NCBI GenBank assembly: GCA_020630735.1
Contig: JAHDIP010000001.1
Coordinates: 1-64,000, forward strand
Reading direction: 5' to 3'
Source: Saprospiraceae bacterium
GTDB taxonomy: Bacteria > Bacteroidota > Bacteroidia > Chitinophagales > Saprospiraceae
Length of the DNA stretch: 64,000 bases
The notes under the pieces were generated by a model that saw nothing but the letters and a program-made list of their open reading frames with translations, had not been told where the DNA came from and did not search any database. Position 1 is the stretch's first letter; each line of letters begins with the position of its first letter. Shown piece by piece: positions 1,643 through 8,882 of the stretch. A program made the translations under genes and the position numbers.

Positions 1643-1777
1643 TTATAAATCTGCTGAGTCGTCAATAATTATTTCTTCGTAATAATCGCGTTGAGCTTGA
1701 TCTAAATTATTGTATTCTGATTCCGAAGAAATGAAACCAAATAAAATCATTAGAGAAATTAATATTGAAGTAATCAT
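1643..1777 (-). CDS. Small ORF, 44 aa, hydrophobic N-terminus and acidic tail
   Basis: The ATG at 1777 opens a 44-codon frame. Residues 2-16 are hydrophobic (MITSILISLMILFGF), like a signal peptide or single membrane helix. The rest is hydrophilic and acidic (DYYEE, IDDSAD). The layout is that of a small secreted or membrane-anchored peptide. It stands in otherwise empty DNA, has no recognisable homologue, and could be chance, although hydrophobic-then-acidic composition is unusual for random AT-rich sequence. Confidence 0.35.
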   Translation of the reverse strand: MITSILISLMILFGFISSESEYNNLDQAQRDYYEEIIIDDSADL

Positions 1778-2122: not shown

Positions 2123-3664
2123 ATGGAAGAACTACAAGAACTCGCTTACATTTTAACTAAACACAAAACTCGATCCATAGAAATCATTGGAGATGATTCT
2201 AAGCAGTACGATTCCAAACTTTACCACCTTTATCAGGCTATAAAAAATGGCGATGTAAAGAATGATGCCCAAGCCGTTTTTGCAATTTATGGCGAAAAGA
2301 AAATATCAGGAAAATATCGCAACCTAAAACATGAACTAAAAAAAAGACTATTCAATACCGTTCTATTTATTGATACTAACTCTCAAAAAAGTAAAGATGA
2401 AGTTTACTATCAATGTTGGAAAGAGTGGGCTGCTTGCCGAATTTTAGTAGAAAAGTCTGCTAGAAAAGTTGCCATAAAATTAGCCGAAAGAATTTTAAAA
2501 AAATGCGTGCAATATGAATTCCATGAATTGGTCATTTCCATTTCTATTTTGCTTCGCAGCCACTACGCCTTAAGGGAAAAGAATAAAGAAAAATTTGAAT
2601 ACTATGATAGTCTATATAACTTTTCGAAAAAACAGGAAAAATATAAAAATCTTGCACATAAGTATTACATGAAGTTGATCCTTGATTATGCAACAGAAAG
2701 TGTCACCGCTAATCCATTAATTGAAGATGATGCTAAAAAGTATTACCAAGAATTATCCAACTTAAAAAACAAAACTAACAATCTTAAATTCCATTATTAT
2801 TTATTCCAAATTCAATTAATTGGTGCGATGGGAATTTTTGATTACAAAAGAGCTAAAGATATTTGTACTGAAGCTATTTCTTTCTTACATCATTCCAATG
2901 GTTTTGATTTTGAAGGAGGTATCAGAAATATTTTACTAAACAAACTCGTTTGCCATATTCAGCTTAAAGAATTTGAAGAGGGTATCATAACAGCTTCAGA
3001 ATGTAAAAATTTTGTATCAGAAGGAACATTTAATTGGTTCAAGACCAATGAATACTTATTCATGCTTTCTATTCACACCACAAACTATCAGGATGCCTAT
3101 GAAATTTATCATGCAAACATTTCTCACCCAAGATTCAAAACATATAAAGTGCTCCACGAAACATGGTTACTCTATCGCATATATCTACATTTCTTATTCT
3201 TAGTCGGAAAAATTACTCCGCTAAAAAAAGATAAAAGCTTTAATACTATTCGGTTAGGTAAATTCCTAAATGATGTTCCATCCTTTTCAAAGGATAAACA
3301 CGGCATGAATATTCCTGTCTTAATCGCTCAAATGGCTTTCCTTATTTTACAGAGAAAATACGATGCTGCAGCTGAAAGAATTGATGCACTCAACAAATAT
3401 TGTGATCGTTATTTGAAAACTAACAATCCCAATTTTAGATGCAATTGTTTTATAAAAATGTTATTGCAAATTCCTATTTCTGGTTTTCATAGAACTGGTG
3501 TAAAAAGAAGGGCACATAGGTATTTAGAAAAATTAAAAACTATAGATATAAATTTTAGTAACCAAGCTCATGAAGTAGAGATATTACCTTTTGAAATAAT
3601 GTGGGAACTTATTCTCGATTCGCTCCAAAACAAAAACTTTAAACTCAAAAAAAGATTTACTTAA
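2123..3664 (+). CDS. Conserved-looking helical protein of unknown function, 513 aa
   Basis: I do not recognise a named family. The protein is soluble, strongly basic, lacks a signal peptide, and is almost entirely helical. The N-terminal 75 residues form a separate unit rich in charged residues (KYRNLKHELKKRL). Residues about 110-470 consist of helix pairs with TPR-like spacing (for example the stretches around LAERILKKC and FDYKRAKDICTEAI), which suggests a protein-binding solenoid. It is a single transcription unit ending at the bidirectional hairpin 3697-3733. A cytoplasmic scaffold or regulator is likely, but no reaction can be assigned. Confidence 0.6.
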   Translation: MEELQELAYILTKHKTRSIEIIGDDSKQYDSKLYHLYQAIKNGDVKNDAQAVFAIYGEKKISGKYRNLKHELKKRLFNTVLFIDTNSQKSKDEVYYQCWKEWAACRILVEKSARKVAIKLAERILKKCVQYEFHELVISISILLRSHYALREKNKEKFEYYDSLYNFSKKQEKYKNLAHKYYMKLILDYATESVTANPLIEDDAKKYYQELSNLKNKTNNLKFHYYLFQIQLIGAMGIFDYKRAKDICTEAISFLHHSNGFDFEGGIRNILLNKLVCHIQLKEFEEGIITASECKNFVSEGTFNWFKTNEYLFMLSIHTTNYQDAYEIYHANISHPRFKTYKVLHETWLLYRIYLHFLFLVGKITPLKKDKSFNTIRLGKFLNDVPSFSKDKHGMNIPVLIAQMAFLILQRKYDAAAERIDALNKYCDRYLKTNNPNFRCNCFIKMLLQIPISGFHRTGVKRRAHRYLEKLKTIDINFSNQAHEVEILPFEIMWELILDSLQNKNFKLKKRFT

Positions 3665-5056: not shown

Positions 5057-5130
5057 TAGCGAGAGGGAGACTTGAACTCCCGACCTCAGGATTATGAATC
5101 CTGCGCTCTAACCAGCTGAGCTACCTCGCC
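5057..5130 (-). tRNA. tRNA-Met (CAT), elongator type
   Basis: Read on the minus strand, a full cloverleaf can be drawn. The acceptor stem GGCGAGG pairs with TCTCGCT (first and last pairs G-U). The D arm is GCTC/GAGC, the anticodon stem CAGGA/TCCTG with loop TTCATAA gives anticodon CAT, and the T stem is GGGAG/CTCCC with loop TTCAAGT. CCA is not encoded. The first acceptor pair is a wobble pair. Initiator tRNAs have an unpaired 1-72 and GGG/CCC anticodon stem pairs, which are absent here, so this is the elongator or, less likely, the lysidine-modified Ile2 tRNA. Confidence 0.9.
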
Positions 5131-5964: not shown

Positions 5965-6096
5965 ATGAAAAAGTACAATTTAAATGAATTAAAGACATTG
6001 AAATCTTTGAAAAAAAACATAACTCTTATTTCTGAACCTAAGAAAATTAAGGGAGGAAACGTTGTAGGTGATTTATATGATCATCTATTGTCATAG
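5965..6096 (+). CDS. Putative double-glycine leader peptide precursor, 43 aa
   Basis: The frame encodes a basic leader of 31 residues ending in ISEPKKIKGG, followed by a 12-residue tail NVVGDLYDHLLS. The GG pair, Ile at -4 and Glu at -8 match the leader rule recognised by C39 peptidase-type ABC exporters. Bacteroidota precursor families share this Lys-rich leader form. In those families the exporter cuts after GG and releases the core peptide. The core here lacks Cys, and Ser is only at the last position, so lanthionine or thiazole modification is unlikely. No exporter or maturase is encoded in the window. The next gene starts 48 nt downstream on the same strand. Confidence 0.55.
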   Translation: MKKYNLNELKTLKSLKKNITLISEPKKIKGGNVVGDLYDHLLS

Positions 6097-6144: not shown

Positions 6145-6447
6145 ATGAAAACGATTAAATTAATCACATTAATCCTACTAACTGGATTCTCCTATAGTGT
6201 TCAAGCTCAACTACTAGATGATCTTGATTGTGGCAAAACCCACAAACGTATTTCTATTGATGGTAATGTTAAAGAAACTGTAAAGATTCCTGTTATAGAA
6301 GTTTATTCGGATAAGGGAGAATTAATTGCTACAGGAAATACGAATAATTTTCCAAGTTTAGTTACTACATTAACTAGAGGAAAGTATACTATTGTTTATC
6401 GCCAAGAAGATCAGTTTATCCGAACCGAAAGAGTACACATTAAGTAA
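6145..6447 (+). CDS. Small secreted protein with a T9SS-tail-like fold, 100 aa
   Basis: A clear signal peptide (residues 1-21, cleavage after VQA) is followed by about 25 polar residues with one Cys. A C-terminal part of about 50 residues has the strand pattern of type IX sorting domains: VIEVYSDKGELI, then LTRGKYTIVY, then a basic end (RTERVHIK). The likeness is to pattern, not to a signature I can prove. If right, the mature protein is little more than a sorting domain. It follows the double-glycine peptide by 48 nt and may be co-transcribed. Its stop codon lies inside a family I repeat, so the original C-terminus may have been longer. Confidence 0.5.
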   Translation: MKTIKLITLILLTGFSYSVQAQLLDDLDCGKTHKRISIDGNVKETVKIPVIEVYSDKGELIATGNTNNFPSLVTTLTRGKYTIVYRQEDQFIRTERVHIK

Positions 6448-6658
6448 TGGTCAAATAATAACTTCCCGATTTGTGGTTGGCACTTTAGAGTTGCAGACCC
6501 GACCGCTAGCGGTTCATTTCGTTGAAAAGATTTCCAAAATCTTTTCTGCTTTGCACCACTGCATTCATGTCGAAAAGCCTCGTGATAGCTAGGCTAATTC
6601 CTTGTCTAAACTCAAAATTCCCTAGCCAAAATACGGAACTTATTTTTCGGCCATTACT
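6443..6658 (-). repeat. Family I MITE-like repeat, copy A (216 nt)
   Basis: Nearly identical, in inverted orientation, to 8617-8844 apart from a short indel. The ends form imperfect terminal inverted repeats (AGTAATGGTCAAATAATAA / ...TTTTTCGGCCATTACT). It contains an internal hairpin GAAAAGATTT/AAATCTTTTC and the palindrome ACCGCTAGCGGT. It carries no ORF of its own that looks coding. It overlaps the stop codon of the gene ending at 6447. Confidence 0.8.
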
Positions 6659-6949
6659 AAATACATTGTAAACTAATTAAAGTTCATTTTTGGTGGTCTA
6701 GTTTTGAATACATTTTTCGTTATTTTTTTTGACAATCCAAGGAGGATTCTCGCAAAAAATGCCTCAACTTTATCCAAAATAGCCTCGACCAAAAAAGGAA
6801 CTAATTTAATTTACAATGTACTAAATAAAAAATGTAAAAAGCATTCTACTAGTTAGGATGCTTTTTTTTTCACAAAAAATCAATGTATTTTACAACATTA
6901 ACCTTGGAAGGAAATAGATAAAAAGTCAGCTATACTAAATTAATCGTTA
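6448..6949. other. Intergenic region made of family I repeat and terminator
   Basis: Holds family I copy A to 6658, then AT-rich DNA with a short TGACAATCC motif near 6730 that recalls family II, then the hairpin at 6836-6870. No gene seen. Confidence 0.6.
6836..6870 (+). terminator. Intrinsic terminator
   Basis: Stem AAAAAGCATTCTA/TAGGATGCTTTTT with one wobble pair, followed by a run of T on the plus strand. It can end transcription from the 5965-6447 genes and also acts toward the convergent TPR gene. Confidence 0.7.
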
Positions 6950-8446
6950 CTAGCCAGCAGATTTGTCTAAGCGATTTAGACCTGCCTTTGCCTTTTGGTG
7001 CAAACTACTTTTGTACTCATCTGGCTTGATTGACAAACAGCGATTGAAGTACTCTGTTGCTTTTTTGTTACTCCCTTGTTGTTCGTAGATTAGACCTATC
7101 TGAAGTGCCGCATTACATGCAAAATAATACCCTTCATATTGTCCTACATCTATTGTTTGCTGATAATAGTTGATTGCTTTTTGGTGTTCTTTTAGGCTGT
7201 GCGTAATACGACCAAGTCGATAGCTGAGTTCTAGCTTTGAACGATTATCTGAAAAATTAGCTGTAGAATAATTACTTAATAAATCATATGCTCGTTGATA
7301 GTATCCGCCGTCAAAAAGTAGTCGTCCTTGTAGAAGTTTTGCGTTAGGAGCAACACCTGAACGTGCTTCCTTCAATGCTGTTTTGTCTCCGCCTATAATA
7401 GATGATCCTTTGATTTTACATTGGTTCATATTATAGTGGTAGCCCTCGTCATTCCCCATCAATAAGTGAAACCAAGCAATTTTTTGATAGGCTTCTTTTA
7501 CATAATTTTGACCATTAAATTTGGTAACATAATCTTCCAAATGGACTTCAGCATCTTCATCTAGTCGATACAATTTACACAATCCAAGCATGTAATCTAA
7601 GTAATAAAAATTTTGTATTTGTTTGCTTTTAGGACGATTTTCTAGTAGTCGAATAGCTTCGTCATTGCGCCCTGTACGCATAGCTACATTAGCTAAAACA
7701 AAACAAGCTAAAGGATTTTCGGCAGCTCGAAGTTTTCCGCTATTAATAATCTTCCAAGCTTCTTCGCTTTTATTGTTGAGGTGCAACATCAAAAAGGCAT
7801 ACATCACTAGTGTTTCTTCTTCGAACAAAAATTCGTTGTACTTCGCATATTCGATTACTTCTTCGATTTCTTTTCGACCTTGTTCAATACTTCCTGTTAG
7901 ACTACTCAGTAAAGAAACTCCCCATTTGTAATTATCGGGAATCGTTCCAACCATAGCATGAAGAATGCCAAGACTTTTCTTGTTTGCAATAAAATCAGGA
8001 AATTTTTCTTGATTTTTTGTCAATAACTTGTGAGCAGAGTTTACTTCTTTGAACGCAGCAAAGTATTCTTCAAATTTTAGACGAGCAAGTGCCCATTGCA
8101 ATTTTATTTCAGCTTGTAAAAATAAATAATACGGAGATGCTTTGTCACCTGCTTTTATCTTATCGAGACGTTTACTTTTATTGTTTTCTAACTGATCGAA
8201 TTCTGCCTTATTTTCATTGATGAAAATTTTGAAAAAATCGATATAATTTTCAATGTAATGAACGATGAGGTTATTCGGTTCTTCTGCTTTGAGTTTTATC
8301 AATAGAGTTTCCGCTTCCCCAAAACGCAGATTCAAGACCTTATCATAAGCAGCCTTAGCATTTTCGCTAAACACAAAATTACCTTGAGCCAAGTTTTGGC
8401 TTATGATAAATAAAAAGCAGAAGAAAAAGGTATAATATTTTTTCAT
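6950..8446 (-). CDS. Secreted TPR-repeat protein, 498 aa
   Basis: The signal peptide is MKKYYTFFFCFLFIISQNLAQ, so start residue 3 of the longest frame (8446) is chosen. The mature protein is helical throughout, with tetratricopeptide-like helix pairs. The clearest are near the C-terminus (GYYFACNAALQIGLIYEQQG, then KKATEYFNRCLSIKPDE), plus several in the middle such as NPLACFVLANVAMRTGRNDE. TPR solenoids bind partner proteins, here in the periplasm. The gene is monocistronic and flanked on both sides by inverted family I repeats. No enzymatic motif was seen. Confidence 0.75.
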   Translation of the reverse strand: MKKYYTFFFCFLFIISQNLAQGNFVFSENAKAAYDKVLNLRFGEAETLLIKLKAEEPNNLIVHYIENYIDFFKIFINENKAEFDQLENNKSKRLDKIKAGDKASPYYLFLQAEIKLQWALARLKFEEYFAAFKEVNSAHKLLTKNQEKFPDFIANKKSLGILHAMVGTIPDNYKWGVSLLSSLTGSIEQGRKEIEEVIEYAKYNEFLFEEETLVMYAFLMLHLNNKSEEAWKIINSGKLRAAENPLACFVLANVAMRTGRNDEAIRLLENRPKSKQIQNFYYLDYMLGLCKLYRLDEDAEVHLEDYVTKFNGQNYVKEAYQKIAWFHLLMGNDEGYHYNMNQCKIKGSSIIGGDKTALKEARSGVAPNAKLLQGRLLFDGGYYQRAYDLLSNYSTANFSDNRSKLELSYRLGRITHSLKEHQKAINYYQQTIDVGQYEGYYFACNAALQIGLIYEQQGSNKKATEYFNRCLSIKPDEYKSSLHQKAKAGLNRLDKSAG

Positions 8447-8531
8447 GAGCAAATATCAATTCGTTGATATAGACATATTCTTAACGCTAAAAGGAGACTT
8501 ACCGTTGTCAGTCGAAAGGCATTTAATTTAT

Positions 8532-8607: not shown

Positions 8608-8616
8608 CTTCCATTA

Positions 8617-8844
8617 AGTAATGGCCGAAAAATAAGTTCCGTATTTTGGCAAGGGAATTTTGAGTTTAGACGAGGAGAAAAACGTAGGGATAGCCTAGCT
8701 ATCACGAGGCTTTTCGACATGAATGCAGTGGTGCAAAGCAGAAAAGATTTTGGAAATCTTTTCAACGAAAAGAACCGCTAGCGGTCGGGTCTGCAACTCA
8801 AAAGTGTCAACCACAAATCGGGAAGTTATTATTTGACCATTACT
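8617..8844 (+). repeat. Family I MITE-like repeat, copy B (228 nt)
   Basis: The longest copy. Same sequence as copy A in opposite orientation, with extra bases near 8690-8705. The ends are AGTAATGGCCGAAAAATAAG and CTTATTATTTGACC-ATTACT type inverted repeats. No coding capacity. Confidence 0.8.
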
Positions 8845-8882
8845 AAAAAACCCTGAAGAATTTGATTTCTCCAGGGTTTTTT
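8845..8882 (-). terminator. Intrinsic terminator of the zinc-ribbon gene
   Basis: Stem AAAAAACCCTG/CAGGGTTTTTT extended by AGAA/TTCT past one mismatch, with T-runs on both outer ends, 22 nt after the minus-strand stop at 8904. Confidence 0.75.

Follow-up and report, generated by a model that had tools for sequence, protein, structure and literature searches.

We propose that the small open reading frame at positions 5965-6096 of the window, by which we mean the whole 64,000-nucleotide stretch analysed here (the first 64 kb of contig C354, in a genome of 6.64 Mb and 434 contigs), encodes a C39-exported peptide signal that has been orphaned from its receptor gene and belongs to a family working like the Rgg/SHP pairs of streptococci, a reading whose chances we see as evenly balanced. 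Once expressed, the precursor would be recognised by a C39 ABC exporter whose gene lies in another part of the genome, and this exporter would cut the leader after Gly-Gly during export and release a 12-residue acidic core. This core would act as a signal, returning to the cell by some form of uptake and binding a cytosolic TPR-like protein to trigger a response, as SHP pheromones do with Rgg. Having no receptor gene as a neighbour, this copy would target one from another locus, perhaps the K protein encoded 2.3 kb upstream. The set of precursors to which it belongs appears common in this Bacteroidota family (probably Saprospiraceae), many of them beside presumably cytosolic TPR-like proteins. 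More broadly, and at somewhat less than an even chance, Saprospiraceae-like Bacteroidota may possess a multi-copy peptide signalling that is independent of, or far diverged from, Gram-positive RRNPP systems, in which acidic-hydrophobic peptides with I-I-I-(x)-E/D-D cores would leave the cell by the GG/C39 route or through a signal peptide and each act on a matching cytosolic TPR-like receptor of one of two families that we name SPFFN (convergent with the peptide gene) and K (divergent from it). The window would then contain a pair of this kind (1643-1777 with 2123-3664) as well as an orphan signal (5965-6096).

An earlier sequence-only reading had described a 43-aa frame with a basic 31-residue leader ending in GG, preferred residues at -4 and -8, and a short core without Cys and with a single Ser, and the DNA agrees with it exactly. 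The frame runs from an ATG to a TAG and translates into a lysine-rich leader of net charge +7 (MKKYNLNELKTLKSLKKNITLISEPKKIKGG) and a core of 12 residues and charge -2 (NVVGDLYDHLLS). The leader carries Ile at -4, Lys at -3, Glu at -8, Pro at -7, Leu at -11 and Thr at -12; its GG at -2/-1 with a hydrophobic residue at -4 (IKGG) is the mark of C39 double-glycine leaders. Hydrophobic residues at -7 and -12, which together with -4 contact the groove of the C39 protease LahT (PMC6363468, in excerpt), are absent from it, and position -12 is Leu or Ile in 77 of the 83 leaders of the GG peptide set. These two positions are a preference rather than a definition, because LahT is described as tolerant (PMC6363468, in excerpt). 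Pfam and NCBIfam scans of the peptide matched no family, and the promoter motif TAnnTTTG was not found 5' of it. The features discussed here are collected in Table 1.

Table 1. Features of the window, with positions counted from its first letter, and three sister peptides from other contigs of the same genome.
Feature	Position	Strand	Remarks
GG-leader peptide precursor, 43 aa	5965-6096	+	ORF reading and profile scores
Leader of the precursor	5965-6057		
Predicted core of the precursor	6058-6093		
Stop codon of the precursor	6094-6096		
100-aa protein, signal-peptide-like N-terminus	6145-6447	+	48 bp downstream of the GG ORF; no family match
tRNA gene (context only)	5057-5130	-	between the K gene and the GG ORF
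K family protein, 513 aa, helical, TPR-like, candidate receptor	2123-3664	+	homologs divergent beside GG peptides elsewhere
44-aa ORF, hydrophobic signal-peptide-like N-terminus	1643-1777	-	C-terminus EEIIIDDSADL; divergent from the K gene
Sister peptide, contig C282			MKTSLKNFEQLNKNTLNKDARTKIKGG/DGDTTPIIIEDQTDL
Sister peptide, contig C365			MKKNSKKKLQDLQKQSISKVQQKQLKGG/QGIVTTEVIDG
Sister peptide, contig C213			MKKQKFNAIRDLNNNPTFSKNSISDNQLIEIKGG/NDFIVIDDVNGF

Small frames such as this one can arise by chance, with no gene behind them. Against a gapped profile built from 75 GG peptides, itself not among them, the ORF scores 22.3 bits; the runner-up among the window's small ORFs scores 6.1 bits, and none of 90,800 ORFs in 6.4 Mb of random sequence from a third-order Markov model reaches its score (maximum 10.9). 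When 30 members were left out in turn, one fell below it (18.3 bits) and the remainder scored 24.0-48.0. The membership test was repeated with a model free of the ORF, because the relatives had first been collected with an alignment in which it was one of 10 rows: under this own-genome model 72 of the 73 relatives score 7.9 bits or more and 71 of them 12 bits or more, and against a stricter profile made of the 71 relatives so recognised the ORF reaches 15.4 bits, of which its leader by itself accounts for 12.8. A profile of ten other peptides of its own genome also places it top among the window's small ORFs, narrowly (7.9 versus 5.0 bits), and its closest single relative is MKQLNLNSIRELKPKVLDSEEQKKVKGG/STIIVDIIGP, at locus L085 (15.9 bits). 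A chance frame would accord with the want of an ortholog and of an upstream promoter match and with an ungapped leader-only profile, which gave no separation (4.2 bits, with 515 of 91,312 random ORFs equally high), but the gapped profiles set the ORF clearly apart from random ones, and we find this explanation very unlikely. From its sequence, we read the ORF as a real gene and a real but outlying member of the GG peptide set.

The sequence-only reading had proposed a search of this genome for more GG leaders, and there are indeed at least 13 others. They come from four DNA pattern searches and a profile search, to which a scan of gene flanks added the one on contig C95; the profile search gave 13 matches, including the ORF itself and two lanthipeptide-like precursors on C363. 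Pattern counts alone are not decisively above those of reversed-pattern controls (13+13 versus 8+11; 9+7 versus 7+11; 23+16 versus 21+9; 30+15 versus 22+15), and the evidence lies in the in-frame translations. Among relatives, 69 loci of same-family genomes (29 from the profile search, 40 fetched) yielded 73 distinct GG ORFs, with none in four of these loci (L096, L109-L111), and 51 of 120 family genomes have GG matches at E <= 1. Cores of the set have a median length of 14 aa, are negative in 73 of 83 cases and contain Cys in 10 of 83. The early view of the core as unlike known lanthipeptide and bacteriocin cores calls for a broader frame, for the peptide is not unique: it is one of a large and apparently uncatalogued set of precursors, many of which adjoin a TPR-like gene. 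Four loci (L158, L165, L175 and L184) hold two to four GG peptides each, with like leaders and varied cores, and on C74 of the window's own genome (39832-39913) there is a likely frameshifted GG-leader ORF (MKNLSLKTSNKKLEN* ... TIKGG), the product of decay or of an assembly error.

The neighbours of these peptides are among the arguments for signalling. SPFFN proteins, of about 475 aa and with a start like MxKSKLIxLL...SPFFN, adjoin several sister peptides; they are found at 27 places in this genome and in 117 of 120 family genomes at E <= 1e-10. Calling a partner at a distance of at most 500 bp and a score of at least 50 bits, 34 of the 73 GG ORFs in the 69 loci lie beside an SPFFN gene (27) or a K gene (7). 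The orientation differs between the two: 26 of the SPFFN-linked ORFs are convergent (23 within 100 bp) and one is divergent, whereas all seven K-linked ORFs are divergent, six of them at 117-183 bp. The 39 ORFs left without a partner include all four at L158, which lie 1.5-2.3 kb from an SPFFN-like gene, as well as those of L176 and L182, where the adjoining genes do not reach 50 bits. Assuming 80 SPFFN genes per genome, convergent adjacency by chance would be below 1% per peptide, so that the 26 convergent cases among 73 have a binomial p near 1e-37, for loci that are not independent draws. In the genome of the window, three of the 13 profile matches adjoin SPFFN (C282, C365 and C175) against about 0.03 by chance; together with the peptide on C95 this makes four GG peptides convergent with SPFFN, and on C267 a small ORF without GG is convergent with SPFFN and carries the core motif (...STRKIIITDENMGI). 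Presence of the core motif is itself associated with that of a partner (26/8 versus 13/26, Fisher p = 0.0004, for a motif defined after looking).

This pairing is not general to the SPFFN family, because only four of 26 SPFFN genes of this genome adjoin a GG peptide and a scan of the flanks of the others revealed none. SPFFN proteins must therefore have some role without such peptides, being present in 117 of 120 genomes as compared with 51 of 120 for GG matches. As to what the partners are, the SPFFN profile finds only generic TPR proteins in the PDB (best E 9e-15, to a short stretch of an engineered consensus TPR protein), and so, weakly, does the K profile (best 0.027, kinesin light chain). 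The commonest Pfam TPR model matches nine of 26 SPFFN members (best E 7e-4) and two of 10 K members, NCBIfam gives nothing consistent for the two families, and no DNA-binding or effector domain was recognised in either. Homology between SPFFN and K is unsupported (hhalign probability 1, E 0.054, over 124 N-terminal columns). At L113-L139, many SPFFN genes have a large divergent neighbour (> 390 aa) in place of a GG peptide, that of L008, the one inspected, having a secreted look. At L176 and L182, the 3' ends of the GG peptide genes overlap a convergent gene that is weak to both profiles and possibly represents a third TPR-like partner family.

The K family occurs at 10 places in the genome, eight of them full length, the window's gene included; the protein of the latter is related to the K partners at L092 and L097 (phmmer E 3e-31 and 8e-15) and has no match in Pfam or NCBIfam. 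A single-sequence structure model of it (pLDDT 45) was too poor for a fold search. Upstream of the gene, at 346 bp, lies the divergent 44-aa ORF (MITSILISLMILFGFISSESEYNNLDQAQRDYYEEIIIDDSADL), and the K genes on C299 and C285 have divergent ORFs that can be aligned with it (MLALLLSQLLFLGVFNSSNDFQNLTTQEQMEYYIIIEDDFQI and MTTSFIALLILLGFFNSADEVNNLSEQEQQNLIEIVIVDDQGL), while that on C397 has a longer, lipoprotein-like one. Divergent ORFs that combine a signal-peptide-like N-terminus with an I-I-I-(x)-D-D core thus accompany four of the eight full-length K genes of the genome, and the other four loci have none. A search for a hydrophobic N-terminus followed by the core motif returned just those four in 305 kb of loci from this genome, and 6 per 6.4 Mb in random sequence. 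The same core motif hence stands behind two export signals, a GG leader or a signal-peptide-like N-terminus, and we see this as our best hint that activity resides in the core and that exit from the cytoplasm is important. It also bears on the idea that the peptide at 5965-6096 acts inside the cell, or that its leader serves another protein as a docking tag, with no export at all. The C39 contacts at -7 and -12 (PMC6363468, in excerpt) that are lacking here would agree with this idea, but GG and Ile -4 are retained, and the K-linked peptides of this genome point to export as the shared step; we hold it to be the least probable of the readings considered.

An exported signal remains our preferred reading of the ORF at 5965-6096, which is nevertheless the least certain part of the whole picture, because no SPFFN or K gene lies within 2 kb of it, its core is loose, it has Pro -7 and Thr -12, and no ortholog was found. 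The window's K gene, 2.3 kb upstream, is separated from it by a tRNA and by a gene that we take to be release-factor-like, and its proximity may be a coincidence. Read as a list, the 51 long ORFs of the window are presumably for the most part housekeeping genes. In the core, VVGD stands in place of the strict IIxD/IIIxD (VVGDLYDHLL as compared with IIEDFLDL in L088). Conservation of the leader in related genomes, for which a similarity search had been advised, did not emerge: no ortholog was found in 99 other same-family genomes, the genus being represented by this genome alone. Searched with the 43-aa protein, 17 of 100 family genomes, its own among them, showed a match at E <= 1, and the 16 non-self matches were rejected as orthologs (E >= 0.1; their translations are pieces of longer frames or lack a GG leader). 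Synteny through the TPR protein encoded at 6950-8452, whose best named relative is from an uncultured Saprospiraceae bacterium (47% identity), which is our ground for the family assignment, led to three named loci, and in none of them was a GG ORF convincing. An operon with the downstream 100-aa protein, a possible partner, is without support, its homolog being absent from every fetched locus. The 3' end of the gene for that protein is overlapped by the first of two inverted copies of an element of about 230 bp (6438-6662 and 8613-8847, 92% identity over 232 bp), which has the look of a dispersed repeat and only short matches in other fetched loci.

These observations could also mean that the ORF is a decaying or silent copy, a formerly paired GG peptide whose receptor gene is gone and which is drifting. 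Its low family score, with one of 30 left-out members lower, its atypical -7 and -12 and its loose core would fit such a history, as would the failure to find an ortholog. Yet the frame is intact, GG, Ile -4 and Lys -3 are kept, and partnerless GG ORFs are common (39 of 73, within 500 bp), which makes decay quite unlikely. The original suggestion of an exported peptide, possibly a signal, gains from the exporters of the genome, the sister peptides and their short acidic cores, but no ortholog came to its aid.

C39 domains above the Pfam cut-off are encoded at four places of the genome, all outside contig C354 (C399, C202, C55 and C105). It is therefore correct, as had been stated, that the window encodes no exporter, and a C39 exporter of the kind that the earlier reading had wanted to see in the genome does exist, in four genes. 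The exporter gene of C55 is convergent with an SPFFN gene; both it and that of C105 are followed by what we take to be HlyD-like genes. The exporter of C202 neighbours a presumably LanB-like protein, and that of C399 adjoins a longer GG precursor, presumably of the nitrile-hydratase-leader type. The same C399 locus (L006) holds two ABC exporters beside this precursor, which we would label NHLP-like. In L183, about 750 bp separate a GG peptide with core AATGVNIIIERDLCW from an ORF of 140 aa that contains a C39 domain and may represent a truncated exporter.

Such exporters would equally serve a RiPP or bacteriocin precursor, whose core would be modified by an enzyme encoded elsewhere or be antibacterial as it is. 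The cores of bacteroidetocins and class II bacteriocins are cationic and usually contain Cys, and pore-forming bacteriocins are usually larger and cationic; the core at hand is acidic, short, free of Cys and has one Ser. Lanthipeptides combine Cys and Ser/Thr in the core with a Lan synthetase nearby, and here what we take to be LanB- and LanC-like genes are found only on other contigs. One is the neighbour of the C202 exporter; on C363 (L068) there is a lanthipeptide-like cluster with two GG precursors, a presumably LanC-like protein of 390 aa and a presumably LanB-like one of about 1060 aa. These clusters favour the bacteriocin alternative, and GG leaders in Bacteroidales are usually tied to RiPP or bacteriocin clusters (PMC10352776, in excerpt). 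Our peptide shares with those of Bacteroidales, bacteroidetocins included, the phylum, the GG leader and a C39 exporter in the genome (PMC10352776, PMC6671954, both in excerpt), but differs in its Cys-free, 12-residue acidic core and in that no immunity gene and, on a reading of the ORF list, no maturase gene was recognised nearby. We consider this alternative unlikely. The C39/PCAT double-glycine peptides, such as CSP exported by ComA, resemble ours in the GG leader, Ile -4, Glu -8 and the presence of C39 exporters in the genome, and are unlike it in that ours has no adjacent exporter, no hydrophobic -7/-12 and no two-component system seen alongside.

The closest parallel to the signalling that we favour is found in streptococci, where shp and rgg genes are divergent in groups I and II and convergent, with shp downstream, in group III; SHPs have a conserved Glu or Asp, occur in several copies per genome, and are secreted, matured (to forms such as DILIIVGG and EGIIVIVVG) and re-imported (PMC3679016, in excerpt). 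Short hydrophobic peptides with an acidic residue, encoded in multiple copies divergently from, or convergently downstream of, a cytosolic receptor gene, putative in our case, are what the two have in common (PMC3679016, in excerpt), while ours come from Bacteroidota, not Bacillota, and would be exported through a GG leader or a signal peptide. The adjacency of propeptide and TPR receptor gene that characterises RRNPP systems is seen in 34 of 73 GG ORFs and in the window's 1643-1777 and 2123-3664, with nothing of the sort within 2 kb of the ORF at 5965-6096. No RRNPP model (Rap, Rgg, NprR, PlcR or PrgX) is among the listed Pfam and NCBIfam matches of SPFFN and K. Layout and peptide character are strikingly like Rgg/SHP, and because the SPFFN and K proteins are not recognisably homologous to those receptors we speak of a system that may work like Rgg/SHP, not of a member. 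Reviews and surveys place peptide signalling through intracellular TPR receptors in Gram-positive bacteria (PMC10075063, PMC13220807, both in excerpt), and in the literature covered, by title and the start of the abstract and mostly outside subscription journals, there was no description of such an arrangement in a diderm phylum. The pairing of peptides and putative receptors outside Gram-positives hints at an undescribed signalling system. If true, a diderm phylum would possess signalling comparable to RRNPP, present many times over in each genome and with its export route exchanged but its core motif preserved, and this would offer a new system in which to study producers, listeners and the re-entry of peptides through two membranes.

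Another kind of conserved pair was met along the way. At L072 (C113 of the window's own genome; MKKMNRLDAIQQAMDALKKQ...EIKGG) and at L186 (MKKDLKKDLMIQKAMDALEKQ...IKGG), a GG peptide is followed on the same strand by a Cys-rich protein, and the two Cys-rich proteins look homologous, of the type CPSxxxxKGAxLLGIxN. L159 has a peptide that resembles these two.
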